DNA from: a virus
DNA length: 28,243 nt
Virus record (IMG/VR): IMGVR_UViG_3300017917_002319
Location: 1-28,243 of that record
Direction: 5' to 3' (one strand)
Below are positions 10,867-28,243 of this stretch, in pieces; within the stretch, counting starts at the first letter, position 1; every line of letters begins with the position of its first letter. The position numbers and the translations under genes were made by a program. The notes under the pieces were generated by a model that saw nothing but the letters and a program-made list of their open reading frames with translations, was not told the origin of the DNA and did no database searches.

Positions 10867-11373
10867 ATGCTAGCACAACCCAATGATTTCGTACCTTTTG
10901 AATTACCTCATAGCAATTTTTATACCACTGATACGCCTAGTATCAAGTTTATTAAAACGCATGATGATGCAATCTTGCCACGTAAAGCTCATCCTCATCC
11001 TCTTACTGGTGATACTGGGTTTGATTTGTTTGCCGTTGATGACGTCGTTATTCCAGCTAGAGGTAGTGCAGTGGCTCCGGTAGGTTTGAAGCTAGCTTAT
11101 ATTACACCAGGTTATTGGTTTAGAATTGAACCTCGTAGTGGTCTTGGTTTTAAGAAGAATTTGCAACCTCATTTAGGTATTATTGACAATCCTTATCGTG
11201 GTGATATGGGAATTAAGTTATATAACTTCGGAGACTTTGATGTAACTATAAATAAAGGTGTAGCAGTTGCTCAATTTGCAATTTATGAGATCATAACTGC
11301 AAATGTAGAGTTTACTGATACAGTACAAGAAACTGATAGAGGTACTAAAGGTTTCGGAAGCACTGGTGTATGA
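10867..11373 (+). CDS. dut: dUTP diphosphatase (dUTPase)
   Basis: This 168-residue enzyme hydrolyses dUTP to dUMP and pyrophosphate, keeping uracil out of phage DNA and supplying dUMP for thymidylate synthesis. All five motifs of trimeric dUTPases are visible: DTGFDLFA (residues 49-56), PRSGLGF (89-95), GIIDNPYRGDMGIKLYN (104-120) with the catalytic Asp107, VAVAQFAI (132-139), and the C-terminal glycine-rich arm RGTKGFGSTGV (158-168). An extra 25-residue N-terminal segment precedes the usual start of the fold, but the ATG is fixed by a promoter 6 bases upstream. The last four bases overlap the next ATG (ATGA), coupling it to the glycosyltransferase-like gene. Confidence 0.95.
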   Translation: MLAQPNDFVPFELPHSNFYTTDTPSIKFIKTHDDAILPRKAHPHPLTGDTGFDLFAVDDVVIPARGSAVAPVGLKLAYITPGYWFRIEPRSGLGFKKNLQPHLGIIDNPYRGDMGIKLYNFGDFDVTINKGVAVAQFAIYEIITANVEFTDTVQETDRGTKGFGSTGV

Positions 11374-12360: not shown

Positions 12361-13284
12361 ATGGAATATTTCAATTCTCTTTGGGTAGAAAAGTATCGTC
12401 CCAAAACACTTAATGACATGGTCATAAGTGCTAGCAATCAGGTTTTTATTGAAAAATTTAAGAATAATGAGATACCCACTTTGCTTTTTGTTGGTAATCC
12501 TGGTACAGGTAAAACTACCTTAGCTAAGATCATAGTTAATGAGATATTGAATACTCAATATCTTTACATTAATGCATCAGATGAAAACGGTATTGATACA
12601 ATTCGTACCAAGGTGATGGGATTTGCTCAAACAAGAGGATTCACTGAAACTGTTAAAGTAATTATACTTGATGAAGCAGATGGTTTATCTCCAGATTCAC
12701 AACGTGCATTGCGTAATGTAATGGAAGAGTATGCTAAACATACTCGCTTTATTCTTACTGCAAATTACAAGCATAGAATCATTGAACCATTGCGTAGTAG
12801 GTGTCAGCAAGTAGATCTTACTTTTGATATGCCTTCTGTGGTAAATAGAATGGTTTCTATTCTCAATAATGAGAAGGTTACCTATAATATTGAGAATGTA
12901 AAGAATATTGTAAAGAGCTCATTTCCTGATATTCGTCTTACAATCAATAAAATTCAGAAAGCAATTGTTAATAATGAATTAGTTATTGATAGTAAGCTAT
13001 CAGTTAAGGTAGTTAATGACTTATATTGTTTAGTTAAGAAGGGTTTCGCATTGAAATCTAGACAATATATGATTCAAAAGCAAGATGATTTTGGAAATGA
13101 CTTTCAAAAGCTTCTTAAAGACTTATTTGACTGTATTGATAGTGATTCTACGTTAGAAGAGAACAATAAAAAACTCGCTTTAATTACTGTGCATGACCAC
13201 ATTTATAAAGCGAGTTTTGTAGCAGATCAAGAGATCAATGCTTATGTATGTCTCATTAATTTATCAAAATTGTTATCTTCTTAA
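12361..13284 (+). CDS. Sliding clamp loader ATPase subunit (gp44-type, RFC small-subunit family)
   Basis: This AAA+ ATPase opens the sliding clamp and loads it at primer junctions during phage DNA replication. The 307 residues begin LWVEKYRPKTLNDM, the family's N-terminal signature. The Walker A site is GNPGTGKTT (45-53), Walker B is VIILDEAD (100-107), sensor 1 is ILTANY (131-136), and PLRSRCQ (143-149) carries the SRC arginine finger. T4 gp44 is 319 aa, so the length fits. The clamp (gp45) and small loader subunit (gp62) are not in this window. An early-type promoter precedes it. The 3' end overlaps the convergent minus-strand gene by 12 bases with no terminator between. Confidence 0.93.
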   Translation: MEYFNSLWVEKYRPKTLNDMVISASNQVFIEKFKNNEIPTLLFVGNPGTGKTTLAKIIVNEILNTQYLYINASDENGIDTIRTKVMGFAQTRGFTETVKVIILDEADGLSPDSQRALRNVMEEYAKHTRFILTANYKHRIIEPLRSRCQQVDLTFDMPSVVNRMVSILNNEKVTYNIENVKNIVKSSFPDIRLTINKIQKAIVNNELVIDSKLSVKVVNDLYCLVKKGFALKSRQYMIQKQDDFGNDFQKLLKDLFDCIDSDSTLEENNKKLALITVHDHIYKASFVADQEINAYVCLINLSKLLSS

Positions 13285-14420: not shown

Positions 14421-16250
14421 ATGGCAAATAAAAATATACAAGATTATAATTTAAGCGATGCAGGTTATGTTGCATTTGATGCGGTATCGCTGAAAGATAT
14501 AATCATTGAAAGACTTTCACGTAATGGTGTTTTTACAGATCAAAATTACGAAGGAAGTAATTGGAGTGCTTTCATTGATGTAGTTTCTGTTTCATATCAC
14601 TATCTCATTTATTATCTCAATAAGAATGCTAGTGAATCACTCTTTTCTAAAGCTCAACTTTATGAAAACATTAACTCAATTGTTAAGAGTTTGGACTATA
14701 ACCCACTCGGTCCTCAAACTTCTATCTTACCATTTGAAGTATCCGCTAACGCAAATGTCCCGCAAGGTGTATACACAATACCAAGATATAGTTATTTTAC
14801 CTTTAATGGTGTAAACTACTCCTTCACTTCTGATATAACATTTGCTAAAACAGCTACCGGTGATCAAATCTTAACTGATTTCTCTAACCGTAATGTGTTA
14901 TATGAAGGTAAAATCCAAGAATACCCACTCTACTCTGCATTAGGTGATAATTTCGAAACAATTACCATCACCGTTTATGATACCATAAACAATGTAAATC
15001 CAATAATTGATAATTTTAACATATTTGTCTATGTAAAGCCAGCAGATACAGGTGTGTGGGAAGAATGGAAACGTACCACAACTCTCTATACTGAATCTGG
15101 TAGTGCTAAGAGATATTCAGTTAGATATAATGAAGATCAAAGATATGAGGTAAAATTCGGTAATAACATTACTGGTAAGAAATTGAATGCTGGTGATCAA
15201 GTAGCTATCTACTACTTACGTAGCGATGGTACTGCAGGTGAGATTAATGCAGGTGTATTGAATGATAATCCTTTATTCTATTACACCACACCTCAATTTG
15301 ATGTTATCTTAAACAATGTTAAACCTCAGAATGTTACCTATTTAACTATTAGTTTAGCAGATGAATTAGCATTTACTAACACTGTAGCTTCTACTCCTTA
15401 TGGACCACCTGAAACAGTAGAGCAAATAAGAGTAAATGCTCCTCAAGTAATTAGATCTCAATATAGATTAGTTACTAAAGATGACTTTAAATCATTTGTA
15501 AATAGAAATTTCAAAGGATTTATCCAAGATGTTTATGTAGCTAATAATAATGACTACATAAATGGTCAGTATGCTTATTTAAAGAATATTGGATTAAACA
15601 ACAGTTTTGAAGATAGCAGAGTATTACAAAACCAAGTACTCTATGGTACATCAGTTAATTTCAATAATATCTTTATCTATTGTGTACCAAAGCAAACACC
15701 ATTAAACTCTACACAAGCAAGAACTAACTACTTAACAAGTTCACAAAAGCAAATTATCTTAGATGAAGTTAATGAAGTTTGTACATTAACAGTTAATCCA
15801 ATTGTATATGATCCAGTATACATTGCATTTAATTTAGGTATTTCACCAACACCTTTATTCACCGTAAAAGATGTTATTGATAATTCATATTTACAAGTAG
15901 TAATTGATAACAATGTAAATAGAACCAAATCATCTATTGCACAAGATATTGCTACTGTTATAACTAATTTCTTTAGTTTAAGTAATAATCTATTAGGAAT
16001 GACTATTAAGGTTGATGATTTATCTAATGCAATCTTATCAGTAACTGGTGTAAAATACATTAGTACAGTAAATGGTACTGCTAGTAAAACTGGTGTAAGT
16101 TTGGTGTATTACAATCCAATTTATATAGAGAGTGATAAAAACATCACACAACAAAACTTAACATTAGCAAACTTTATGTTTCCTTATTACTACGACACAC
16201 AAAATTTAATTAATAAGATTGTTGTGTATTACGAAAAGGAATTAGTATAA
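14421..16250 (+). CDS. Baseplate wedge protein, gp6/J-like
   Basis: At 609 residues it is close to T4 gp6 (660 aa), the wedge subunit that forms the inner iris ring of the baseplate with gp25 and gp53. The N-terminal helices (KDIIIERLSRNGVFTDQNYEGSNWSAFIDVVSVSYHYLIYYLN) match the start of the family. A central segment (ETVEQIRVNAPQVIRSQYRLVTKDDFKSFVNRNF, about residues 332-365) is the typical baseplate J-like region in which A-P-x-x-x-R-x-x-x-R-L-V-T-x-x-D-F is conserved. Beta domains follow to the end. The neighbours gp25 upstream and large wedge-region proteins downstream support the call. Confidence 0.85.
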   Translation: MANKNIQDYNLSDAGYVAFDAVSLKDIIIERLSRNGVFTDQNYEGSNWSAFIDVVSVSYHYLIYYLNKNASESLFSKAQLYENINSIVKSLDYNPLGPQTSILPFEVSANANVPQGVYTIPRYSYFTFNGVNYSFTSDITFAKTATGDQILTDFSNRNVLYEGKIQEYPLYSALGDNFETITITVYDTINNVNPIIDNFNIFVYVKPADTGVWEEWKRTTTLYTESGSAKRYSVRYNEDQRYEVKFGNNITGKKLNAGDQVAIYYLRSDGTAGEINAGVLNDNPLFYYTTPQFDVILNNVKPQNVTYLTISLADELAFTNTVASTPYGPPETVEQIRVNAPQVIRSQYRLVTKDDFKSFVNRNFKGFIQDVYVANNNDYINGQYAYLKNIGLNNSFEDSRVLQNQVLYGTSVNFNNIFIYCVPKQTPLNSTQARTNYLTSSQKQIILDEVNEVCTLTVNPIVYDPVYIAFNLGISPTPLFTVKDVIDNSYLQVVIDNNVNRTKSSIAQDIATVITNFFSLSNNLLGMTIKVDDLSNAILSVTGVKYISTVNGTASKTGVSLVYYNPIYIESDKNITQQNLTLANFMFPYYYDTQNLINKIVVYYEKELV

Positions 16251-18590: not shown

Positions 18591-21500
18591 ATGCCAATAG
18601 ATATACAAAGGTTTTCAGAGTATAGACCACCTGATTCAATTACATTATTAGGCGATGTAAAAATTGCAAAGGACTATCAAAACCCATTTGCTTTTTCCAC
18701 ATGGTTAAATAGTTTCAAGCAGTTTAATGAATCACCAGAGATCTATATTGATCTGTATAGAAAATATCTATCTAAATGGTATGTTGTAAAGAATAACATT
18801 ATTCTTACAAATGCAGAATTAATTGTCTTATCATATACAAGTATCTTCTATGATTTACAATTAACCTATTTTACTACTGATGAGAGAAGATTCTTAACTA
18901 CTCTCGATTATAATAAAAGACAAGACATTGACATAGCAATTCCATTCTTTGCTCGTAAGATTAAATCCATCTGTAAAAACTTAGTAGATTTACGTGAAGC
19001 AATTAAGAGTCAACCAGTTAAACTTAACCTTGGTGGTACTAGAGAAACTCTTAGTAAATTGATTTATGATAGTATCTATGCTTCATTTAAGGATACCGAT
19101 CTCCAACCATTATTCTATAAAGATGATATATCAGAAGAAACCATTTTAAACAGTACTAGAGTCTTAGTAGAAGAATTATATGATGATACTGATTACTATG
19201 TTCTTTCTGGTTACAATGAACAGATACCAATTGAGTATCAATTATTCTTAGATTTCTCTAGTGCTATATTAGCACAATTAAGTGCAGTAGAATTCATCGT
19301 ACCTGAATTATCTGATTACCTTACATTTACACCTGATTTACAATCTACAGATTTACAGTACTTATACGATAAAGATTTCATTAACACAATAAACAATGGT
19401 TTAAGTGCTAATTTAAATCTTAATAATTTAGCTGAACTTACTAAGAAGTTTGCTGGTAGTGATTTCTATTACTTAAGTACTAATAGCCAAACAGAAGTAG
19501 TATCAGGTTTATTATTTGCTACAACTTCTAAGAGTGCAAATGATCAAAATATTTTCAACTTAAAGTTTGCACTTAAACAATTAGTAGGTGATAATCTTTA
19601 TACAGCTAGAGATGTTGGTGGTTTTTATTTACCAGATAGAATTGGAATGTTATATTACAATCCAATAAAGTCTACCTATACAATTAATAATGAAGGTTTA
19701 CAACCAGACACTGTAATTGTATATCCTAATCCTGATGTATACCCATATGATAATAATGGTGTTTTAAGCTTTGTTTATAACACCACAGTCTTCAAGCATA
19801 CAATTTCTGATCAGTATATATTTGGTGATATTAAGGATGATAGAAACTTACCAGATTTCAAAGGTTATCAGAGTTACAATCAAAGTGTTAATAACTATTT
19901 CAGTAACATTAGTAAACCAACTGATAGTGTAGGTTTCTTTAAAAACAGTAGAGATAACATTTGGTTAAATCCTGATGTATACCCTATAGATAATACTGCT
20001 GTATTTCCTGTAAGCTCTAGACAAAATAAATTACTTGTAGACAATAACACTGATGTAATTAAATTCAGAACTGATGTATATGGTAATAGCTATGGTTTAT
20101 TAAAAGAAGCATTTGCTGTAGAGAATATAAATTTTAATGCTAATCAATTTGCAACCATATTATTGAATTACTTCGATGGATTCTTCTTCAACTGGACTAG
20201 ATTCTCTGGTAATGATTTCGATTATTATGTAACAACCCCTGAAATTGAAGGTTACATAAGATCTGGTTTAAGTGCAACCACTTTCGATCAAATATCTACA
20301 GTAGGTAATCCATATATATTTGGTGGTAATGATAACATACCAATGTTTGCATTATCTGGTAATTACATATATATCTATGGTGGTTCATTTACTGATCTCT
20401 ATGGTAATTCATTACCAACTACAATATATGTAGGTACTGTAATATATGATGGATATACATTTACCAATCAGAGTAATGGTCAATTATTTTATGAATTACC
20501 ATCTACTGACTCACCTGCATGGCCTGGTAGTGTAAGTAATCAGTTATTATTGTATTATCAGTATTACATAGAAGGTGGTGCAAATAATAATAATGAAAGA
20601 CCTACCTTTACATTTCCAGCTACATTTAAACCAGCTGCATTAGCTAATACAGGTTATTCAAACACTGAAAATGTAATTGATGCTGGTCAATTTATATATG
20701 TTCAAATTATAGATAATGAAGTGGTTCCATATAATCCATTTGCTAATAGAGCAAATAATTATTACGAATCCTCAATACCATATTACGATAATGTATTATC
20801 TGGTAATGAAACAGTGTATACAGCTAATACAGGTTTAAATGATAATTTAGATATATACAAGAAACGTAACATTACATATGGTTCATTAATTGTTAGATCT
20901 GGTAATAATACAATTATATCTCCTATATCATCAGCATTGAGTGCTAACTTTGTTAGATATCCTGATGATGTAAAATCTCAAATTAATAATAACGTTATTG
21001 ATTTTGATATAATCTATGACACTATTATCATTGAAACTACTAATTATAGAGTAGTAGAGAAGATAAACTATGATTATGATACTAATACATTTATAGGTAG
21101 CTATACACCAGCCATTTACATGTCAGTAAGTGCATTAGAACAATCACTTGCTAAATTTGGTGATTTCTGGTTCAATGAATATTATAAGAACGTATTATTC
21201 TTTGATACAACATTATCAAATTCAGTATCTGGTAACTTAAAGATTGTATACCCTTCAGTATATAAGTTAGATTTAGTTAACTATGAATTCAAACAAATAT
21301 ATCCTTTAAGTAATGAAGATTTAACTAAGTTCAGTTTATCCACATACTTATCTGGTTTATATGATAACACTGTTCAATACTTTAATTTTCAGTATATTTT
21401 CAACCCACAAAATGTAGATGCACCATCAGTGGCTTATAACTATGAAACAGACATATACACGGTAATAGTCAAGATGTATGATAATGCTGGAGCTACTGCA

Positions 21501-21695
21501 ATACAAGAACTTCAATTTAAGTTCATAAGCGGTATATTCACTTTACTAGTTAACAAGTGTTATTTCTTAAATGAACTTATAAGAGATGAAAGTTATAGTA
21601 ATCCAATTACTGCAAACTTTTTAGACTATCTTACACCTGTTTCTGGTTTAAATACTGGTGTGTGGGATAGTGCAATTGGTGTATATAAATTTTAA
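18591..21695 (+). CDS. Very large virion protein of the baseplate region (1034 aa)
   Basis: I cannot assign a family. The length is close to T4 gp7 (1032 aa), the large wedge protein, and the gene lies two after gp6. Residues 1-300 are mostly helical with mixed charge (YLSKWYVVKNNIILTNAELIVLSY, RRFLTTLDYNKRQDIDIAIPFFARKIKSICKNLVDLREAI). The rest is a long Asn/Tyr/Asp/Ser-rich beta region without cysteine clusters. Segments such as NPDVYPYDNNG and NPDVYPIDNT are repeated about 85 residues apart, hinting at internal duplication. It has its own late-type promoter core. A wedge or outer baseplate role is inferred from place and size. Confidence 0.6.
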   Translation: MPIDIQRFSEYRPPDSITLLGDVKIAKDYQNPFAFSTWLNSFKQFNESPEIYIDLYRKYLSKWYVVKNNIILTNAELIVLSYTSIFYDLQLTYFTTDERRFLTTLDYNKRQDIDIAIPFFARKIKSICKNLVDLREAIKSQPVKLNLGGTRETLSKLIYDSIYASFKDTDLQPLFYKDDISEETILNSTRVLVEELYDDTDYYVLSGYNEQIPIEYQLFLDFSSAILAQLSAVEFIVPELSDYLTFTPDLQSTDLQYLYDKDFINTINNGLSANLNLNNLAELTKKFAGSDFYYLSTNSQTEVVSGLLFATTSKSANDQNIFNLKFALKQLVGDNLYTARDVGGFYLPDRIGMLYYNPIKSTYTINNEGLQPDTVIVYPNPDVYPYDNNGVLSFVYNTTVFKHTISDQYIFGDIKDDRNLPDFKGYQSYNQSVNNYFSNISKPTDSVGFFKNSRDNIWLNPDVYPIDNTAVFPVSSRQNKLLVDNNTDVIKFRTDVYGNSYGLLKEAFAVENINFNANQFATILLNYFDGFFFNWTRFSGNDFDYYVTTPEIEGYIRSGLSATTFDQISTVGNPYIFGGNDNIPMFALSGNYIYIYGGSFTDLYGNSLPTTIYVGTVIYDGYTFTNQSNGQLFYELPSTDSPAWPGSVSNQLLLYYQYYIEGGANNNNERPTFTFPATFKPAALANTGYSNTENVIDAGQFIYVQIIDNEVVPYNPFANRANNYYESSIPYYDNVLSGNETVYTANTGLNDNLDIYKKRNITYGSLIVRSGNNTIISPISSALSANFVRYPDDVKSQINNNVIDFDIIYDTIIIETTNYRVVEKINYDYDTNTFIGSYTPAIYMSVSALEQSLAKFGDFWFNEYYKNVLFFDTTLSNSVSGNLKIVYPSVYKLDLVNYEFKQIYPLSNEDLTKFSLSTYLSGLYDNTVQYFNFQYIFNPQNVDAPSVAYNYETDIYTVIVKMYDNAGATAIQELQFKFISGIFTLLVNKCYFLNELIRDESYSNPITANFLDYLTPVSGLNTGVWDSAIGVYKF

Positions 21696-21700
21696 CAACC

Positions 21701-23170
21701 ATGAATTTACCAGCAGATACAAAATCATCTAGTATAGTATTAAAAAACGACAACACTACTTTAGTTTTTGATCCAACTAAAGATATTGCTGTATCTGTAG
21801 ATTATTCATTTTTTGAATCTACAAGTGCATTAGGTGGTGGATTTTGTGTATTCTTTATTGCTGATACAAATACACAAATAGTATCTGGAGCACCTGGCCC
21901 TGGTTTAGGATACACTACTATTAGTGATTACTCTTATAATGGTATATCTACATTTTTCGGTACTAGTGGTGGGTATATAGCTGTTGCATTTGATGTTGAT
22001 GGTTATTTTGCTGTATCTGGTACAAATATAACTGGAGGTTATACTAATCCGGTACCTAATAGTATAACAATTAGAGGTGGTAGTAATGATAATTATAGCT
22101 TTTTAGGTAATAGCGGTGATTTACAATCATATCCTAATGTTGCATATCCTAATAGTGAAGCAATATCATTAAGTACTATTCAAAATGAGTATAAAACTAT
22201 AAGAGTTTCATTATTAAACTTTTCTAGTACTGTATTAGTTGAATTTAAGAATGACAGAGGTGAATTTGTACCATATTATCAACAAAATTTAAACATACCA
22301 AGACCACAATTTTCAGTAAGAGCTGGTATTAGTTATTCTACTGGTATATCTGGTAATAATAACTTTTGGATTAAAGGTGTTAATTTTAGAGGTTTACCAG
22401 GTAACTACTATGGTTCACTTACACCATCTATTACTAGTAGTTTCTTAACACAAGTTGATAATGACATATACATTACTTTATCAGAAGATAACCAAACATT
22501 AAGCGCTTATAGTGTTCTCAATGGTTATTTGTATTTTATAGTAGATCCAACTACCTATCAATTCACTAGTTACTATTATTCAAACACTGCTGAAGGTTTA
22601 TCTAGTTACACTTTAAGTGACTCTGGTTTACCAGTTATATCTGGTGGTTTGTTTAGTGATTACACTGATGGTTATTTCAATTATATTAGAAATTATAGTG
22701 CTACTGTACCAAATCTTATAAATGAATTTGATACAATATCGTTTAATTTATCAGGTATAGCTGATAGTACATATAATATAGTTAAAACAGTGTTGGACAA
22801 ATTTGGTGATAACTCTGTATTGATATCAGCGGTGAAAGATTTCTATATAACCTATGACGATACTAGCGCTTTAACTATAGCATCAGAGACTAATAATTAT
22901 ACAAGTCCTAAGTACACTTTATTAGAAACAAGTTACCAGACTATTAATTCAGCATTTACAACTACCTATACACCTGTAATATCAGTATTTAGAGATAACG
23001 GTATTATAGATGTAATAACAATTAATCTCACAGTAGCTAAGCAAAGTTTTAATGAAATTACTCAAAACTTTAGAGTAATCGATACATATCAATTCAATGA
23101 TAAAATCATCATTAAGATGCAAAATCCTATTACAAATCAATTATACTTTACTTCATTGAGTGCTGGTTGA
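21701..23170 (+). CDS. Virion protein with a concanavalin A/L-type lectin-like domain
   Basis: The first 230 or so residues follow the L-type lectin pattern: SVDYSFFESTSALGGGFCVFFIAD (residues 32-55), GAPGPGLGYTTI (63-74), then YIAVAFDVDGYFAV (92-105) and a later PNSITIRGG segment. G-x-G-F-C-V-F-F, G-x-G-L-G-Y and G-x-[IV]-x-[IV]-x-F-D-x-x-G-x-F are the usual anchor points of that fold. The C-terminal half is beta-rich and unidentified. It probably binds a surface sugar, as part of a fibre or a baseplate appendage. It starts five bases after the preceding gene and ends the structural block; the next gene has a different promoter class. Confidence 0.6.
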   Translation: MNLPADTKSSSIVLKNDNTTLVFDPTKDIAVSVDYSFFESTSALGGGFCVFFIADTNTQIVSGAPGPGLGYTTISDYSYNGISTFFGTSGGYIAVAFDVDGYFAVSGTNITGGYTNPVPNSITIRGGSNDNYSFLGNSGDLQSYPNVAYPNSEAISLSTIQNEYKTIRVSLLNFSSTVLVEFKNDRGEFVPYYQQNLNIPRPQFSVRAGISYSTGISGNNNFWIKGVNFRGLPGNYYGSLTPSITSSFLTQVDNDIYITLSEDNQTLSAYSVLNGYLYFIVDPTTYQFTSYYYSNTAEGLSSYTLSDSGLPVISGGLFSDYTDGYFNYIRNYSATVPNLINEFDTISFNLSGIADSTYNIVKTVLDKFGDNSVLISAVKDFYITYDDTSALTIASETNNYTSPKYTLLETSYQTINSAFTTTYTPVISVFRDNGIIDVITINLTVAKQSFNEITQNFRVIDTYQFNDKIIIKMQNPITNQLYFTSLSAG

Positions 23171-23200
23171 TTTAAAAATATAGGTTGATAAGATATTGTG

Positions 23201-23206
23201 TAATGT
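23201..23206 (+). promoter_or_regulatory. Weak -10-like element
   Basis: TAATGT stands 6 bases before the ATG at 23213, the spacing of the early-type promoters. No good -35 occurs 16-18 bases upstream; TTGATA at 23185-23190 is too close (10 bases) and TTGATT at 23167-23172 too far (28). Confidence 0.3.
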
Positions 23207-23212
23207 AAGTCT

Positions 23213-23485
23213 ATGAAACATTATATTAGCGAAGAAGAAAAAAAGAGACAAATCGAACAAATGTGGGAAGACTATGAGAGAGCCAATAAAGCTCAAATCA
23301 GCAAGTTTGACCAAAATGGTGAATTCAGAAATGAAATTACTGATTTTTTCGATGAAAACGAAGAGATAAGTACTAATGATCCTGTGAGATATGAAAAATT
23401 ATCTGAAGGTAAAAATTACAGACAGAAATCTAAAAAGAAAAACGGACAGAACGCACATAAGAAGTCAGATAGTTTTCACGACTAA
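23213..23485 (+). CDS. Small charged protein, possibly the N-terminal part of the SprT-like protein (90 aa)
   Basis: I do not recognise this protein by itself. It is very polar: an acidic-basic helix (ISEEEKKRQIEQMWEDYERANKA), an acidic middle (ITDFFDENEEISTND) and a lysine-rich end (RQKSKKKNGQNAHKKSDSFHD). Its last 95 bases overlap the reading frame of the SprT-like gene in the +1 frame. The SprT homology starts exactly where this frame stops, and the end reads AGT-TTT-CAC-GAC-TAA, where a +1 slip at TTT-C would join the two. It may be an independent small gene or the 5' part of a frameshifted protein. Confidence 0.5.
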   Translation: MKHYISEEEKKRQIEQMWEDYERANKAQISKFDQNGEFRNEITDFFDENEEISTNDPVRYEKLSEGKNYRQKSKKKNGQNAHKKSDSFHD

Positions 23486-23906
23486 GTTACATAAGTTGTA
23501 TAGGCATATAAATAAAAGGTTATTTGATGACAAACTGCCAATGTCTCAAATAACCTTTTACCCTATCGATGGGTGTTATGGTGAAGTATATTTAGAATCT
23601 TGTAAAAAGTTTCCTCTTATAGTTTTAAATAATGAATATTTAAAATTAGGTATAGTTCACATTATTGAAATTTTAATACATGAAATGGTGCATGTATATT
23701 GTGCTATATATGGTATTAATGAAATGAATTTCAAGAATGGTTATCACAATAAAAATTTCAAAAGAGTATGTGAGCAAATAGGTATGGTATGTGATAAGTC
23801 TGAAAATGGTTTCAATGTTGTCACATTACCTAAAGATCTTTACTTTCACTTTACAAAATTTATTAATGATAAAGAACTTGTACAATTAATTTCACTATAT
23901 AATTAA
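23391..23906 (+). CDS. SprT-like zinc metalloprotease domain protein
   Basis: SprT-like proteins are zinc metalloproteases related to the SPRTN family that removes DNA-protein crosslinks. Features here are LHKLYRHINKRLFDDKLP (residues 33-50), the family's opening helix, ITFYPIDGCYGEVYLES, then HEMVH (97-101, the HExxH zinc site with Glu98), and YHNKNFKRVCEQIGM (118-132) supplying the third ligand His119. The ATG at 23391 gives 171 residues, but the first 30 are just the alternative frame of the preceding gene. Other possible origins are TTG 23496 or a +1 frameshift near 23475. A C-terminal zinc ribbon, present in some homologues, is absent. Confidence 0.75.
   Translation: MKNYLKVKITDRNLKRKTDRTHIRSQIVFTTKLHKLYRHINKRLFDDKLPMSQITFYPIDGCYGEVYLESCKKFPLIVLNNEYLKLGIVHIIEILIHEMVHVYCAIYGINEMNFKNGYHNKNFKRVCEQIGMVCDKSENGFNVVTLPKDLYFHFTKFINDKELVQLISLYN
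23513..23560 (+). repeat. 15-bp perfect inverted repeat (RNA hairpin) inside the SprT-like gene
   Basis: TAAAAGGTTATTTGA (23513-23527) and TCAAATAACCTTTTA (23546-23560) are exact reverse complements separated by 18 bases. The hairpin begins 28 bases after the stop of the upstream overlapping frame and lies wholly within coding sequence. It could be an attenuator or a structure affecting the frame overlap. Confidence 0.7.
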
Positions 23907-23913
23907 TCAAAAT

Positions 23914-24168
23914 ATGATACCTGCAAATTTTTTATCCTCAGTACACCAAGCACGGTATGTATACGTCAATGAAACACTAAACGAGATATATGTATGGCAT
24001 GGAGAGAACACAATTAAGATTTACAATTACTTAGGAAAAGAAATCGGTAAGAGTGATATAATTAATTATCAAGAAAATAGAGTGTATAAGGAGCACGAAC
24101 CTATAAATATTAGAGACGTATCTATATCAATAGATGATATTGTATATAGTAGTTATAGAAATGGGTAG
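23914..24168 (+). CDS. Small unknown protein (84 aa)
   Basis: I do not recognise it. It is a soluble beta-rich protein (ARYVYVNETLNEIYVWHGENTIKIYNYLGKEIG) with alternating hydrophobic residues in the first half and an acidic end. It begins 7 bases after the SprT-like gene, so it is probably in the same transcript, and its last eight bases overlap the next start (ATGGGTAG). Confidence 0.55.
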   Translation: MIPANFLSSVHQARYVYVNETLNEIYVWHGENTIKIYNYLGKEIGKSDIINYQENRVYKEHEPINIRDVSISIDDIVYSSYRNG

Positions 24169-24370
24169 AAGTAAAAAATCAAAAGATGATTTAGTCACAA
24201 AAAAGATGGTCGACGTTATGTGCGACAACATCTCTACAATACTTCTGGAGATGGGATTTTATCCAGGGACGGAAATGTTCGATAAAACATTTTACCGTTT
24301 GATGGATGAAATCGAAATTGAGATTAAAGAAAGAGTTATAAAGCGTATCAGACAAGTAATAGATAACTAA
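24161..24370 (+). CDS. Small unknown helical protein (69 aa)
   Basis: I do not recognise it. ATG 24161 is preferred over the in-frame ATG 24134, which would add nine hydrophobic residues and extend the overlap with the previous gene to 35 bases. The N-terminus is basic (MGRSKKSKDD) and the remainder helical and charged (MDEIEIEIKERVIKRIRQVI). The stop codon directly abuts the stop of the minus-strand gene. Confidence 0.55.
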   Translation: MGRSKKSKDDLVTKKMVDVMCDNISTILLEMGFYPGTEMFDKTFYRLMDEIEIEIKERVIKRIRQVIDN

Positions 24371-24919
24371 TTACCGTCTCTTCAGAAGTCTCTTATTTCC
24401 AACCAAACAATACTGATAGTAGCTACAATTATCACAATATTCCCCATTACCAAACCAAACATGAGGTTGTTGGCAAGTACCACCATGTTTTATCTGACAT
24501 CCATTAGGACCACCAGTTGCATTTTCAACATATGCCTTCCATGATTCCCAATTGTTAAGAGTTTCAGTTTCAATCTTCTTTTTAGCAGCGTATTCAGAAC
24601 TCTCTAAATAACCAGATGATTGTTTCTTCTCACGCTTTTTAGCAATTTTAATCTTATTTCTTAGTAATACATCTTCAGAAATATCAGGTAATTTAGCTTT
24701 AACTTTAAGTTTCAGTCTCACTTCTTCCTGAGACATACCTTCCTTAAGGAACTTTTTAGCCTTTGTACTAATGAAATTAGCTAAGAAAGCATCTGTAGAA
24801 CCAAACTTATCTATCTTTCTCTTTAGTGTAGGTCCATATATATAATGTTGCTTACCAGTAATGAGGCAAGTTGCGTATATAGATTTAATCTTTTCTTTGA
24901 CCTTCTGTTTAACTTTCAC
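24371..24919 (-). CDS. Unknown basic protein with a C-terminal Cys-rich, probably zinc-binding, region (182 aa); GTG start
   Basis: I do not recognise the family. The first 120 residues are basic and mainly helical, opening MKVKQKVKEKIKSIYATCLITGKQHYIYGPTLKRK-like with a later KIAKKREKKQ segment. Cys141, His145, Cys149, His153, Cys162, Cys165 and Cys171 follow, and C-D-N-C at 162-165 looks like a zinc knuckle. A DNA- or RNA-binding role is plausible. The start is GTG 24919, 6 bases behind a minus-strand sigma70-like promoter. It is divergent from the RadA-like gene, with the two -35 elements only 8 bases apart. Confidence 0.6.
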   Translation of the reverse strand: MKVKQKVKEKIKSIYATCLITGKQHYIYGPTLKRKIDKFGSTDAFLANFISTKAKKFLKEGMSQEEVRLKLKVKAKLPDISEDVLLRNKIKIAKKREKKQSSGYLESSEYAAKKKIETETLNNWESWKAYVENATGGPNGCQIKHGGTCQQPHVWFGNGEYCDNCSYYQYCLVGNKRLLKRR

Positions 24920-24925
24920 TTACAT

Positions 24926-24955
24926 ATAATAACCAGAACACCTTGAAAAACTCAA
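24926..24955 (-). promoter_or_regulatory. Sigma70-like promoter for the zinc-binding gene (minus strand)
   Basis: On the minus strand TTGAGT (24955-24950), an 18-base spacer and TATTAT (24931-24926) end 6 bases before the GTG at 24919, again predicting a leaderless transcript. Confidence 0.55.
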
Positions 24956-24963
24956 GAAAAATC

Positions 24964-24992
24964 TTGAAGTCTTTTGGGAACACCCATATAAT
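24964..24992 (+). promoter_or_regulatory. Sigma70-like promoter for the RadA-like operon
   Basis: TTGAAG (24964-24969), a 17-base spacer and a perfect TATAAT (24987-24992). Unlike the other promoters this one lies 39 bases before the ATG (25032), so the mRNA should have a leader of about 32 bases, rich in A, with AAAGAAAAAG. Confidence 0.65.
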
Positions 24993-25031
24993 GTTAGCCG
25001 AAAGAAAAAGTATCCATAAAAAATCCTAAAT

Positions 25032-25955
25032 ATGCAACTTAATATTGCAGAGAGCGAAACGTTTCAAAGTGTCAAAAACATCACCATTCCTGATGTTTAT
25101 TACCGTAAGATGAAATGCGGTATTCCTGAAATTGATTTGCTCTTTAATGAAGGTTTCCTTCCTGGTAGTACTTTTACCCTTACTGCTCAAGCTGGTTGTG
25201 GTAAAACTACATTGATGCTTCAAATTTTGGAGCAATTGAGTAAGAAATATAAGGTTGGTTATGCAAGTGGGGAAGAACATATTCATCAACTTGCCTTTAC
25301 TGCTAAACGTATTAAGTGTGAAAATGTACCAATTGCCAATATTACCGATGTGGATAAACTTGTAGAGATGACGAAAACGTTGAATTTTCTTGTTGTTGAT
25401 TCGTTTCAATCACTCACTACTAAATATAAGCATTTTAACAATACTGAGAAAGATAGGTATGCTGTTCAAGAGCTTACTAAAGCAGCTAAAGCTAATGAAT
25501 GTACTATCTGTTTTATTGTGCATTTGACTAAAATGGGTGTTATTAAAGGTAGCACTCTTCTTCCTCATACAGTAGATGCTAATATGAATATTGAGATGAT
25601 GGAAGAATATGAAGAGGATGGAGGTCGTACTATTTTCTTCATTAAGAATCGTTTCGGACCTTTGAATACTCTTAATGCATTTATCACTAATAACGGTTAT
25701 GATTTCAATAGGAAATTTGAAACTGAAATTGTTGATGTAAAGCAAACTAAGAACAAAAATAAGTTCTATGAGTCTATTCTCACTATGGAAGGAGATATTA
25801 CTGTTTCTAACTTGGTAGAGAAGCTTGATATTAACATCGTAAAAGCTGGGTCTCTCTTGAGAGAATTAACGCAGCTTAACCGATTGGTAAAAGTAGGTCG
25901 TGGTAGCGAAGCTGTCTGGAATGTTGTAAAGAAGACAGTAAATATGGATGTATGA
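25032..25955 (+). CDS. RadA/Sms-like recombination ATPase without zinc finger or Lon-like domain
   Basis: RadA is a RecA-family helicase that drives branch migration. The 307-residue protein has the RadA core: GIPEIDLLFNEGFLPGS (30-46), Walker A AQAGCGKTT (52-60), GYASGEEHIHQLAFTAKRI (76-94, the 'SGEES' region), Walker B LNFLVVDSFQS (117-127), and KNRFG (205-209), the motif that distinguishes RadA from RecA. The usual N-terminal four-cysteine finger is absent. In place of the C-terminal Lon-like domain there is a winged-helix-like segment from about 245 to 300 (ESILTMEGDITVSNLVEKL ... LLRELTQLNRLVKVGRG). It probably serves phage recombination or replication restart. Its ATGA junction couples it to the next gene. 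Confidence 0.8.
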   Translation: MQLNIAESETFQSVKNITIPDVYYRKMKCGIPEIDLLFNEGFLPGSTFTLTAQAGCGKTTLMLQILEQLSKKYKVGYASGEEHIHQLAFTAKRIKCENVPIANITDVDKLVEMTKTLNFLVVDSFQSLTTKYKHFNNTEKDRYAVQELTKAAKANECTICFIVHLTKMGVIKGSTLLPHTVDANMNIEMMEEYEEDGGRTIFFIKNRFGPLNTLNAFITNNGYDFNRKFETEIVDVKQTKNKNKFYESILTMEGDITVSNLVEKLDINIVKAGSLLRELTQLNRLVKVGRGSEAVWNVVKKTVNMDV

Positions 25956-26173
25956 CCGTTACATCTTTAAAAGAAACATCTGTCAGATCAATAACTGTTG
26001 AATGGCAGATGAATGGTCAACAACAATTTGTCACTCTTACTGAGTGGGCAAATAGAGAAGGTGTAGATTTATCTTCACATAATATAGCACCTATCCAATT
26101 AACTAACCACCAATTGATGAGTTTTGTTAATTGTGCTACAAAACTTTTCTTTTCTCCAAGTAATAATAATTGA
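25952..26173 (+). CDS. Small unknown protein coupled to the RadA-like gene (73 aa)
   Basis: I do not recognise it. ATG 25952 overlaps the stop of the RadA-like gene by four bases, so translation is coupled and a functional link is possible. The N-terminal half predicts strands (VRSITVEWQMNGQQQFVTL), the second half helices (TEWANREGVDLSS, then QLMSFVNCATKLFF). No metal site or catalytic motif is seen. Confidence 0.6.
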   Translation: MTVTSLKETSVRSITVEWQMNGQQQFVTLTEWANREGVDLSSHNIAPIQLTNHQLMSFVNCATKLFFSPSNNN

Positions 26174-26198
26174 TTTCCTAATTGGTTCTATTTAAACT
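26170..26198 (+). promoter_or_regulatory. Sigma70-like promoter for the TGT-like gene
   Basis: TTGATT (26170-26175) overlapping the preceding stop, a 17-base spacer and TAAACT (26193-26198). The ATG is 9 bases further on, so the leader would be 0-3 bases. Confidence 0.5.
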
Positions 26199-26207
26199 TA
26201 AGTTGTT

Positions 26208-26999
26208 ATGCTTATCTCACACGAAGTACCAATTAGTTTGTTGACTACATCATTAGGCTTTAATGATTATAATTATTGCTTAGTTCATCTACTTGAAACC
26301 CATAATGCTTATAAAGAGTTTTATAAAGCATCTGTAACTAATGGTAAAGAGTTGCTTCTTGATAACTCTATTTTTGAACTCGGTAAAGCTTTTGATCCTG
26401 AAAAGTTTGCTGGTTGGATTGAGTATCTTAACCCTACCTATTACGTAGTGCCAGATTCTCTTGAAAATTGTGATGAAACTATTCAGAATTTTAAGAGCTT
26501 TGTTTCTACATATAAGCAGTTGAATGGTGCAAAGATCGGTGCTGTTCAAGGTAAGACTTACAATGAACTTGTTGAATGTTACAAGTTCATGGCTGACAAT
26601 TGCGATTACATTGCACTTAGTTTTGATTTAAGTTTCTATCAAAACATTGGTACTGGTACAACTAAATTGCAAAAGCAATGCTCTGGTAGACAGAGATTCA
26701 TTTCAATGTTAATTGAGGATAGTATTATCCGTTGGGATATGCCTCATCATTTGCTTGGTTGCTCTCTTGCTAAAGAATTTGCCTGGTATAGGGAGAAGGG
26801 TGTTACTTGTATTCGTTCTTGTGATACCAGTAATCCTATTGTTTCAGGTATTGAAGGATTGTATTACAATGGTACATTTGGTATGCAAATCAAGCCAACT
26901 ACTAAGTTGATTGAGTATATTGATCATACGGTTACTGACATTGAAAAATTTAGAATTATGCACAACGTTAACTATTTTAGAAAGATTGTAAATGGGTAA
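26208..26999 (+). CDS. TIM-barrel protein of the tRNA-guanine transglycosylase/DpdA type
   Basis: The 263-residue protein shows the landmarks of the TGT fold in order. LLDNSIFELG (50-59) lies where TGT has the catalytic D-S-G-G-F. YYVVPDSLENCDET (78-91) is the barrel strand carrying P-D. IGAVQGKTYNEL (110-121) is equivalent to the G-x-V-Q-G-G motif. HLLGCS (181-186) resembles L-M-G-V-G. CIRSCDTSNP (201-210) occupies the place of the nucleophile segment G-x-D-x-F-D. TGT swaps guanine for a deazaguanine in tRNA, and the DpdA relatives do so in DNA. Cysteine zinc ligands of bacterial TGT are not evident, as in DpdA. Whether this acts on phage DNA, tRNA or something else is unknown; no preQ0 genes are in the window. 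Confidence 0.5.
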   Translation: MLISHEVPISLLTTSLGFNDYNYCLVHLLETHNAYKEFYKASVTNGKELLLDNSIFELGKAFDPEKFAGWIEYLNPTYYVVPDSLENCDETIQNFKSFVSTYKQLNGAKIGAVQGKTYNELVECYKFMADNCDYIALSFDLSFYQNIGTGTTKLQKQCSGRQRFISMLIEDSIIRWDMPHHLLGCSLAKEFAWYREKGVTCIRSCDTSNPIVSGIEGLYYNGTFGMQIKPTTKLIEYIDHTVTDIEKFRIMHNVNYFRKIVNG

Positions 27000-27002
27000 T
27001 GA

Positions 27003-27338
27003 ATGAATAACAGCGGGGGTAACTACATCGATTATTTGAACCATATAATTAGCGAAAACTATGCTAATTATTGGAAATTTGAGATCGAAAGAGGTAGTAC
27101 CCCCGCTGATCACTATAAAGCAGATAAATTTATATCTGTATTAAATTTGCTAGAAGAAGTTAAAGCATTTTACATATTAAATGTTCAATATGACACTAAC
27201 TACGATGGTTTAGGTCTTCTTCTAGATTTTGTTTATGGTAAGACTTCTCAATACGATGTTAATTGTATTGAGTTTTTCACTCTTAATATGATAGTTTTAA
27301 GTCTTATTGAATTACTTAAGAGTCAACAAGTACCTTAA
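27003..27338 (+). CDS. Unknown protein (111 aa)
   Basis: I do not recognise it. It starts three bases after the TGT-like gene and is probably co-transcribed. It is mainly helical and rich in Tyr, Asn, Asp and Leu (YIDYLNHIISENYANYWKFEIERG, then NLLEEVKAFYILNVQYD). The first 100 bases contain a GC-rich 11-bp inverted repeat unlike the surrounding AT-rich DNA. The 3' end overlaps the convergent Dps-like gene by 27 bases. Confidence 0.6.
   Translation: MNNSGGNYIDYLNHIISENYANYWKFEIERGSTPADHYKADKFISVLNLLEEVKAFYILNVQYDTNYDGLGLLLDFVYGKTSQYDVNCIEFFTLNMIVLSLIELLKSQQVP
27011..27108 (+). repeat. GC-rich inverted repeat flanking the first 30 codons
   Basis: CAGCGGGGGTA (27011-27021) and TACCCCCGCTG (27098-27108) are exact reverse complements, separated by 76 bases. 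With one bulged A the stem continues CTAC/GTAG to 15 pairs. It begins 6 bases after the ATG of its gene. AGCGGGGGTA also occurs at 12187-12196. Confidence 0.7.
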
Positions 27339-27683
27339 TTTATTAACATTAGCTAACATTTCATCTCTAATGTTTAATAACTCTGAATTACGATCTGGTG
27401 AGTAATCAGCACTATTAAGTAATTCAGAAGTAAGATAGTTTACAATATTTTTCATAGCACTATCAATTTTATCTGGTGAATAGTTGATAAGTGGTATTTG
27501 AAAGTCATCTCCCACAGGAAATATTCTACCATACTTACCCTGATAAACTTCAATAAATTCATCAATGAGGTCATTTAATTCGTCGTATGTCTTACCGAAT
27601 GCTTCATGCTCAGCAAAACTCTTTGTTTGCCAATGGAAAACTTTTAGTTGGTTCAAGATTGCTAACAGATTAATTAATTTCAT
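27312..27683 (-). CDS. Dps/ferritin-like phage protein
   Basis: The 123-residue helical protein carries the Dps-like pattern LNQLKVFHWQTKSFAEHEAFGKTYDELNDLIDEFIEVYQG (residues 10-49). H-W-x-T opens helix A, an E-H pair follows 6 residues on, and the D-E-x-x-E segment (41-45) sits where the ferroxidase ligands of Dps reside. Such small phage homologues are usually annotated as DUF5856/Dps-like. Its role may be iron oxidation, DNA protection or neither. The ATG at 27683 is chosen over TTG 27686 because TAAATA ends 6 bases before it. A late-type promoter is notable for such a protein and hints that it is made with virion proteins. Confidence 0.65.
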   Translation of the reverse strand: MKLINLLAILNQLKVFHWQTKSFAEHEAFGKTYDELNDLIDEFIEVYQGKYGRIFPVGDDFQIPLINYSPDKIDSAMKNIVNYLTSELLNSADYSPDRNSELLNIRDEMLANVNKLRYLLTLK

Positions 27684-27689
27684 CAAAAG

Positions 27690-27697
27690 TATTTATT
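27690..27697 (-). promoter_or_regulatory. TAAATA late-type promoter core (minus strand)
   Basis: On the minus strand AATAAATA, continuing CTTTT, ends 6 bases before the ATG at 27683. It touches the -35 element of the oppositely directed sigma70-like promoter. Confidence 0.7.
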
Positions 27698-27725
27698 TGA
27701 AGGTATGCAAGAGTAAATATATATT
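27697..27725 (+). promoter_or_regulatory. Sigma70-like promoter for the 71-aa gene
   Basis: TTGAAG (27697-27702), a 17-base spacer and TATATT (27720-27725) lie 4 bases before the ATG at 27730. It fixes the start well downstream of the longer open frame. Confidence 0.6.
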
Positions 27726-27729
27726 GAAT

Positions 27730-27945
27730 ATGGTGAATGTTAAAGAAGACGATATTTTTATAGTACACGATATTAAAGTTGCTATAGGTGAACGCAATAG
27801 CAATATCTACTTCTTCAAAGAAGGTAAACATTTGTCATTAGAATTAGATGATTTTGTTCAGATGACCAGACCTATCGTCAAATATCTGTACGAAGAAGGT
27901 TTCATCAAGGTAAAGTCATTGAAAGTGACAATTTTGTCAAAATAA
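27730..27945 (+). CDS. Small unknown protein (71 aa)
   Basis: I do not recognise it. The open frame extends upstream to 27565, but those 55 codons are the reverse of the Dps-like gene, and the promoter stands immediately before ATG 27730. The short form is soluble and beta-rich: VNVKEDDIFIVHDIKVAIGERNSNIYFFKEGKHLSLELDDF, then a helix and a basic strand end (FIKVKSLKVTILSK). The early-type promoter suggests a small early gene. Confidence 0.6.
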   Translation: MVNVKEDDIFIVHDIKVAIGERNSNIYFFKEGKHLSLELDDFVQMTRPIVKYLYEEGFIKVKSLKVTILSK

Positions 27946-27948
27946 TTC

Positions 27949-27977
27949 TTGATTTTATTAAGGAACGTGCGTAATAT
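27949..27977 (+). promoter_or_regulatory. Sigma70-like promoter for the tRNA
   Basis: TTGATT (27949-27954), a 17-base spacer and TAATAT (27972-27977), predicting a start near 27984, ten bases before the mature tRNA 5' end. Confidence 0.6.
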
Positions 27978-27993
27978 ATTTATAGTTAAAAAT

Positions 27994-28080
27994 GCCTAGG
28001 TGACCCGAATGGTTAAGGGACCAGTTTTGTAAACTGGCGGCGAAAGCCAACTGCAGGTTCGATTCCTGTCCTAGGCTCCA
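27994..28080 (+). tRNA. tRNA with anticodon TGT (Thr, ACA) and a long class II variable arm
   Basis: The 87-base cloverleaf is complete. Acceptor GCCTAGG/CCTAGGC has 7 perfect pairs. The D-arm has CCC/GGG and AATGGTTAA in the loop. Anticodon stem CCAGT/ACTGG (5 perfect pairs) encloses TTTGTAA, so positions 34-36 read TGT. T-arm GCAGG/CCTGT encloses TTCGATT, discriminator is T, and CCA is encoded. Between anticodon and T stems there are 15 bases with a GGC-GAAA-GCC hairpin, i.e. a class II arm as in Ser, Leu and Tyr tRNAs, not Thr. G1-C72, C2-G71, G35 and U36 are bacterial threonine identity elements, so charging with Thr is plausible. The D-arm resembles bacterial tRNA-Tyr or tRNA-Ser. Confidence 0.9.
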
Positions 28081-28118
28081 TTTTTCGTAGACCGGTGTAA
28101 AAAATATTATTGAGCTAC

Positions 28119-28126
28119 AATAAATA
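28119..28126 (+). promoter_or_regulatory. TAAATA late-type promoter core
   Basis: AATAAATA, continuing CTTAC, ends 5 bases before the ATG at 28132 in the gap after the tRNA. Confidence 0.65.
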
Positions 28127-28131
28127 CTTAC

Positions 28132-28243
28132 ATGAAGAAAACCGGTAAGTGCTTAAATTGTAGTGTTGAATTTATTTTTAATACGTTTGTAACAAAAGGT
28201 AAATACTGTTCAACAAAATGTTCTGGTGAACATAGACGAATCT
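28132..28243 (+). CDS. N-terminus of a zinc-knuckle protein, probably an HNH endonuclease (3' end outside window)
   Basis: The frame is open to the window edge and 37 residues are visible. CLNC (residues 7-10) and KYCSTKCSGEHRR (25-36) give a C-x2-C ... C-x3-C zinc knuckle with the K-G-K-Y-C-S-x-x-C-x-x-x-H pattern that opens many phage HNH homing endonucleases. The catalytic HNH part would lie beyond the window, so the call is partial. Position next to a tRNA gene is usual for such mobile genes. A late-type core precedes the ATG. Confidence 0.55.
   Translation, partial: MKKTGKCLNCSVEFIFNTFVTKGKYCSTKCSGEHRRI

Follow-up and report, generated by a model that had tools for sequence, protein, structure and literature searches.

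The window (the whole 28,243-nt stretch of viral DNA analyzed here) carries a single tRNA gene, called Thr(tgt) by ARAGORN, in which a threonine anticodon is set on a body with the long variable arm of a class II tRNA (Table 1). We are confident that this element is a phage tRNA-Thr(UGU) on a class II body, and we infer that it accepts threonine and reads ACA (and ACG by wobble). In the standard view, the class II tRNAs of bacteria are those for Leu, Ser, Tyr and Sec. Our searches of the open-licence literature turned up no description of a class II tRNA-Thr from bacteria or phages, and we claim no priority.

The gene matches Rfam family RF00005 at 27994-28077 (52.5 bits, E 9.2e-9; gathering score 29), and its fold is more stable than that of shuffled sequence (minimum free energy -33.3 kcal/mol, z -2.7), with stems of 7 bp (acceptor), 3 bp (D), 5 bp (anticodon), 3 bp (variable arm, with a GAAA loop) and 5 bp (T). 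The variable region of 15 nt, with its own 3-bp stem, belongs to class II (more than 10 nt with a stem of its own) and is too long for a bacterial class I tRNA-Thr (variable loop of 4-5 nt), and the loop TTTGTAA has the NGU anticodon, U33 and A37 of a tRNA-Thr. A sequence-only reading had proposed a long-arm class II tRNA with a threonine anticodon at this locus, which the ARAGORN call, the Rfam match and the length of the variable region confirm; the cloverleaf that it described as perfect is a good one, but it has three nucleotides before the D stem and an A-A mismatch at 10-25.

Table 1. Predicted tRNA, its parts and neighboring genes in the window
Feature	Position	Strand	Basis
Predicted class II tRNA-Thr(UGU), 87 nt, CCA encoded	27994-28080	+	ARAGORN; RF00005 52.5 bits; same-shape homologues
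Acceptor 5' strand GCCTAGG (G1, C2)	27994-28000	+	ARAGORN structure; Thr identity pairs G1-C72, C2-G71
Linker TGA, acceptor to D stem; 3 nt, one above usual; 10-25 is an A-A mismatch	28001-28003	+	sequence, structure
D arm CCC-GAATGGTTAA-GGG; near-identical to D arm of Acinetobacter phage P1 tRNA-Tyr	28004-28019	+	sequence comparison
Anticodon arm CCAGT-TTTGTAA-ACTGG	28021-28037	+	sequence
Anticodon TGT (UGU; predicted to read ACA, and ACG by wobble)	28028-28030	+	ARAGORN anticodon at position 35
Variable region, 15 nt: C, stem-loop GGC-GAAA-GCC, 3' linker AACT	28038-28052	+	sequence; stem covaries across family
T arm GCAGG-TTCGATT-CCTGT	28053-28069	+	ARAGORN structure, sequence
Acceptor 3' strand CCTAGGC and discriminator U73	28070-28077	+	sequence
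Encoded CCA end	28078-28080	+	sequence
dUTPase	10867-11373		
gp44-type clamp loader	12361-13284		
gp6-like baseplate wedge protein	14421-16250		
DpdA-type DNA guanine transglycosylase-like protein	26208-26999	+	42-45% identity to phage homologues
Dps/ferritin-like protein, just upstream of the tRNA	27312-27686	-	phrog_858, PF19174

Threonine identity in bacteria is set by G1-C72, C2-G71, G34, G35 and U36, with N73 weakly used, and serine identity by G73, G2-C71 and a large variable region (PMC9976931). The window tRNA has both threonine pairs, G1-C72 and C2-G71. Where a tRNA-Ser has G73 and G2-C71 it has U73 and C2-G71, where a tRNA-Ser has about one unpaired nucleotide 3' of the variable arm it has four, and where a tRNA-Tyr has G34 U35 A36 and A73 it has U34 G35 U36 and U73. 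Among the viral matches listed, the 85 distinct class II Thr sequences have G1-C72 in 84 cases and C2-G71 in all 85, and their N73 is T in 72, A in 11, C in two and G in none. The class I Thr tRNAs of the same set (n = 50) have C2-G71 in 47 cases and T, A and C at N73 in 40, nine and one, whereas the Ser tRNAs (n = 67) have G2-C71 in 63 and G73 in 52; the sequences in these sets are mutually related, so that the counts do not represent independent events. The viral pattern left the acceptor unconstrained, and the bacterial scan described below, which imposed GC at 71-72, was left out of the acceptor counts. Where class II and class I Thr tRNAs could be compared on the same locus, N73 agreed in 49 of 52 comparisons. 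The proposal that the two acceptor pairs, together with G35 and U36, favor ThrRS is supported, the pairs being present and conserved in these viral relatives; the T discriminator, which had been thought unusual for Thr, is the commonest one in the class I tRNA-Thr of this set.

In the mechanism that we consider most probable, the host ThrRS would charge the window tRNA via G1-C72, C2-G71, G35 and U36, and the product would read ACA, and ACG by wobble, in phage translation; ACA and ACG make up 259 of the 620 threonine codons in the 24 reading frames of the window. SerRS would be avoided through C2-G71 and U73, in place of G2-C71 and G73, and through a Tyr-like 3' linker of the variable arm (4 nt long in the window and 3-4 nt among class II Thr tRNAs, with a mode of 3 in Tyr tRNAs and of 1 in Ser tRNAs, at 65 of 83), and TyrRS would be avoided through U73, U34 and G35.

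The long arm is an identity element for SerRS, and its presence here, together with the fact that SerRS does not read the anticodon, is what speaks for charging by SerRS, with serine inserted at ACA by missense suppression or recoding. A precedent is provided by the allo-tRNAs, which have acceptor/T stems of 8/4 or 9/3 bp and SerRS identity (Mukai et al. 2017, reviewed in PMC7609411) and which, with non-Ser anticodons, insert serine in E. coli (PMC7609411). The window tRNA resembles them in its long arm with a non-Ser anticodon, but its stems have the canonical 7/5 geometry and its identity elements are those of Thr rather than Ser; we rejected membership of the allo-tRNAs on the stem geometry. 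With C2-G71 and U73 where SerRS would look for G2-C71 and G73, and with an arm linker of 4 nt rather than the single nucleotide usual in Ser tRNAs, we judge charging with serine very improbable, and the bacterial genomes described below argue against it further.

By its gene content (Table 1), the window is a fragment (28 kb) of a T4-like myovirus; its G+C content is 31%. The nearest annotated relative of the DpdA-type protein is the DpdA of Flavobacterium phage immuto, and others lie in Cellulophaga and Campylobacter phages; a Bacteroidota host for the window phage is therefore likely. The same protein suggests, by its homology, that the phage DNA may carry 7-deazaguanine modifications. Downstream of the tRNA, the start of a reading frame at 28132-28243 (+) encodes paired cysteines (MKKTGKCLNCSVEF...YCSTKCSGE) resembling a zinc finger and runs off the window.

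A near-identity search of phage genomes with window positions 20000-28243 gave no match. Two viral contigs (L016 and L023) share gene order with the window and have a tRNA gene at the same place, and L023 runs on into a cluster of Met, Ile, Arg and Val tRNAs. The flanks of these contigs are 67-72% identical to those of the window, while the tRNA differs at only two positions, which suggests that selection maintains it. This near-identity amid diverged flanks also bears on the reading of the gene as a degenerate or misfolded tRNA-Tyr, or another pseudogene, that merely resembles a tRNA-Thr: with the anticodon loop moved by one base the anticodon becomes GTA, and the body does resemble phage tRNA-Tyr, but the anticodon arm (5+7+5) is fully paired, CCA is encoded and many homologues bear the same Thr signature. 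We give a pseudogene almost no credence, less still than serine charging.

The homologues come from a scan of IMG/VR with a DNA pattern (UGU anticodon loop, long spacer and T loop), and they answer the call of the sequence-only reading for a homologue search with long-arm tRNA-Thr(UGU) genes of the same shape in both phages and bacteria. At least 119 stretches matched the UGU pattern, and at least 103 of these are long-arm Thr(tgt) by ARAGORN; no long-arm Thr(GGU) was present among the at least 120 stretches listed as matches to an equivalent GGU-loop pattern, and a complete scan with a CGU-loop pattern gave 26 stretches with six long-arm Thr(CGU), two of them with atypical acceptor ends. The long-arm Thr form is therefore strongly biased to UGU. 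Other carriers are a phage of 595 kb (L002) and Aeromonas phage AsFcp_1, the latter with the gene inside a tRNA array.

The variable-arm stem of these tRNAs covaries across the family, with 113 of 114 cells paired in the group with a 14-nt variable region (shuffled mean 58) and 106 of 126 in the group with a 15-nt region (shuffled mean 52).

The T5-like phages carry tRNA-Thr(UGU) on either body. In T5, EPS7, FFH1, VAH1 and phiR2-01, a class I tRNA-Thr(UGU) of 75 nt immediately follows a certain small gene; in Lindwurm and ende that intergenic site, behind the same small gene, is occupied by a class II tRNA-Thr(UGU) of 87 nt. Searching with the site as it stands in Lindwurm returned 280 records, and in 88 of them the match spans 80% or more of the query, class II gene included. 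The same site and the same anticodon on different bodies suggest that the two forms do the same job. Class I tRNA-Thr(UGU) (of the E. coli type, and in T5) shares with the window tRNA the UGU anticodon, A37 and A38, G1-C72 and C2-G71, and long and short forms have the same U73 or A73 as neighboring Thr tRNAs; they differ in the variable loop (4-6 nt in class I, a 15-nt arm in the window) and in the 3-bp, Ser/Tyr-like D arm of the window. These phages offer a testable natural system, with the same anticodon, host and intergenic site and two bodies.

We also scanned 84,980 species genomes, with a bacterial pattern that fixed GC at 71-72, and found long-arm tRNA-Thr(UGU) in Spirosoma, in metagenome-assembled genomes (MAGs) of Kiritimatiellia/Lentisphaerae type, in Eremiobacterota and in a few others. 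Of 36 Spirosoma genomes, 35 have the gene. A sample of 194 genomes from the order contained four carriers, each with exactly the Spirosoma sequence, and one further match that is of another type. In a sister genome to Spirosoma, Thr(UGU) is an ordinary class I tRNA of 74 nt, and in a DNA search of the family with its gene, at a threshold of 80 bits, class I Thr(UGU) was detected in 55 of 57 non-Spirosoma genomes versus none of the 36 Spirosoma genomes (a strict pattern, TTGTAAN{10,30}GGTTCRANTCC, was dropped as a class I detector, because the class I gene of sister genera escapes it; a lax pattern gave hundreds of chance matches). Those of the best Spirosoma matches that were identified are tRNAs for Thr(CGU), Thr(GGU), Asn or Lys. 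One Spirosoma genome (G206) carries both the class II gene and a divergent, possibly acquired class I Thr(UGU) (L580, G206:C1:7833080-7833290). In Spirosoma fluviale, a partial inventory of 40 tRNA genes (150 of 307 candidates scored; Ile(GAU) and Ala(UGC) not recovered) has the class II gene as the sole Thr(UGU), along with class I Thr(CGU) and Thr(GGU); all three Thr tRNAs share GCC...GGC-U73 ends, and the Ser tRNAs begin with AGAGAG or GGAGAG. The class II gene is likewise the only Thr(UGU) found in one Kiritimatiellia MAG and one Eremiobacterota MAG, both incomplete.

Spirosoma has thus exchanged its class I tRNA-Thr(UGU) for the long form, and it was wrong to presume that every bacterial Thr tRNA belongs to class I. 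Because the tRNA that has been replaced is essential for decoding, the long form is most probably threonylated by ThrRS, and this replacement is our strongest argument for such charging. The long form is the sole ACA reader found in nearly all Spirosoma genomes and the sole Thr(UGU) found in the two MAGs from other lineages. Serine at each of their ACA codons would be untenable, and the suggestion of serine insertion at ACA is not supported. Spirosoma ThrRS aligned with the sister ThrRS has gaps near the termini only. As a separate observation, a locus in an Eremiobacterota MAG (L376, G007:C7:182400-186300) contains a dense array of about two dozen unusual tRNAs with low model scores; it adjoins a normal chromosomal tRNA set and is perhaps the tRNA array of a mobile element.

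We classified the bodies by profiles scored on the D arm, the T arm and the arm geometry (leave-one-out accuracy 154 of 171). Of 124 class II Thr tRNAs, 66 were Ser-like, 57 Tyr-like and one Leu-like, so that a Leu-type body was rejected; class I Thr was the nearest relative in only two of the 124, and the scan pattern itself accounts for part of the T-arm similarity of class II Thr tRNAs. The window body scores as Tyr over Ser by only 3.3 nats, so its sequence leans toward a Tyr origin and is not proof of one. Its nearest relative is the class II tRNA-Tyr(GUA) of Acinetobacter phage P1, which has a near-identical D arm (TGACCCGAATGGT(T)AAGGGA), a similar variable arm (C-GC...GC-AACT) and a 3' linker of 3-4 nt, and which differs in its GUA anticodon, A73 and acceptor stem. 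Tyr loops (YTGTAAA) and the window loop (TTTGTAA) share TGTAA, and a one-base register shift turns GUA into UGU. Class II tRNA-Ser(UGA) shares the long arm and the D-loop type but has G2-C71, G73, an arm linker of 1 nt and the anticodon UGA; in Spirosoma and Kiritimatiellia, the class II Thr tRNAs have the T arm and the D-loop type of their own Ser(UGA). Placed beside one another, these likenesses make it probable that the window copy arose by remodeling of a tRNA-Tyr body and that other members arose from tRNA-Ser, and several independent conversions of Ser or Tyr to Thr are likely, as far as such short sequences can tell. That this might be a Thr tRNA evolved on a Ser or Tyr body had been anticipated, and the Thr acceptor identity, the replacement of class I Thr(UGU) and the nearness of the body to Tyr and Ser tRNAs all agree with it.

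As to why the arm is there, we lean toward its being neutral: genes for tRNA-Ser and tRNA-Tyr would have become Thr(UGU) by changes in the anticodon and the acceptor, ThrRS would tolerate the arm and phages would have spread the product. The bodies nearest to Ser and Tyr tRNAs, the single register shift between the Tyr GUA and Thr UGU loops and the ordinary ThrRS of Spirosoma fit this account. It is less at ease with the lack of long Thr(GGU) among the matches listed, although a single step likewise separates Ser(GGA) from Thr(GGU), and with the compensatory changes that have kept the stem, which indicate that the arm is needed at least for folding.

An unlikely alternative, for which there is nevertheless a rationale, is that the long arm was selected as a shield from the cleavage or modification of tRNA-Thr(UGU) by host enzymes, for instance the PARIS nuclease AriB. 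This nuclease has a prime target in the tRNA-Thr(UGU) of E. coli, which it cuts between bases 40 and 41, and PARIS is countered by tRNAs of phage T5 (PMC12409363). The bias of the long form to UGU would fit such a role, as would A39 and U41 in the window, where the AriB site has U39 and A41. However, 41 of 124 class II Thr tRNAs have UCA at 39-41 and so keep the AriB site, and an anti-defense role alone sits poorly with bacteria whose own tRNA is the long form. The tRNA-Thr of T5 tested in PMC12409363 is class I (75 nt), and we rejected the T5/PARIS experiments as in vivo evidence for the class II form. We also regard as doubtful the broader proposal that the arm is an adaptation by which an ACA reader of phages and some bacteria, still chargeable by ThrRS, would be spared the destruction or modification to which host enzymes subject class I tRNA-Thr(UGU), and that it would form part of a wider phage set of long-arm tRNAs with identities outside class II (Asn, Cys, Met, Lys, Pro, Ile and Gly).

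Whatever the role of the arm, the frequent occurrence of a long-arm tRNA-Thr in phages and its replacement of class I across one genus imply that ThrRS can live with the arm, and the family would represent a natural conversion of Ser and Tyr bodies to Thr. It bears on how phage tRNAs might resist tRNA-cutting defenses, and it raises the question of whether annotation pipelines should treat such conflicts between isotype and anticodon as errors.

Finally, many phage tRNAs with long variable regions have other anticodons (Asn, Cys, Met, Lys, Pro, Ile, Gly, Gln and Trp), at viral loci L019, L025, L027, L032, L035, L039, L043, L051, L057, L089, L095, L101, L106, L112, L123 and others. Their N73 mostly fits the anticodon (G73 for Asn, U73 for Cys, A73 for Pro and for Met), as it does for Thr. 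The record of Flavobacterium phage immuto (L294:6149-6234) has an annotated 86-nt tRNA-Cys that ARAGORN does not call and that may be another long-arm tRNA.
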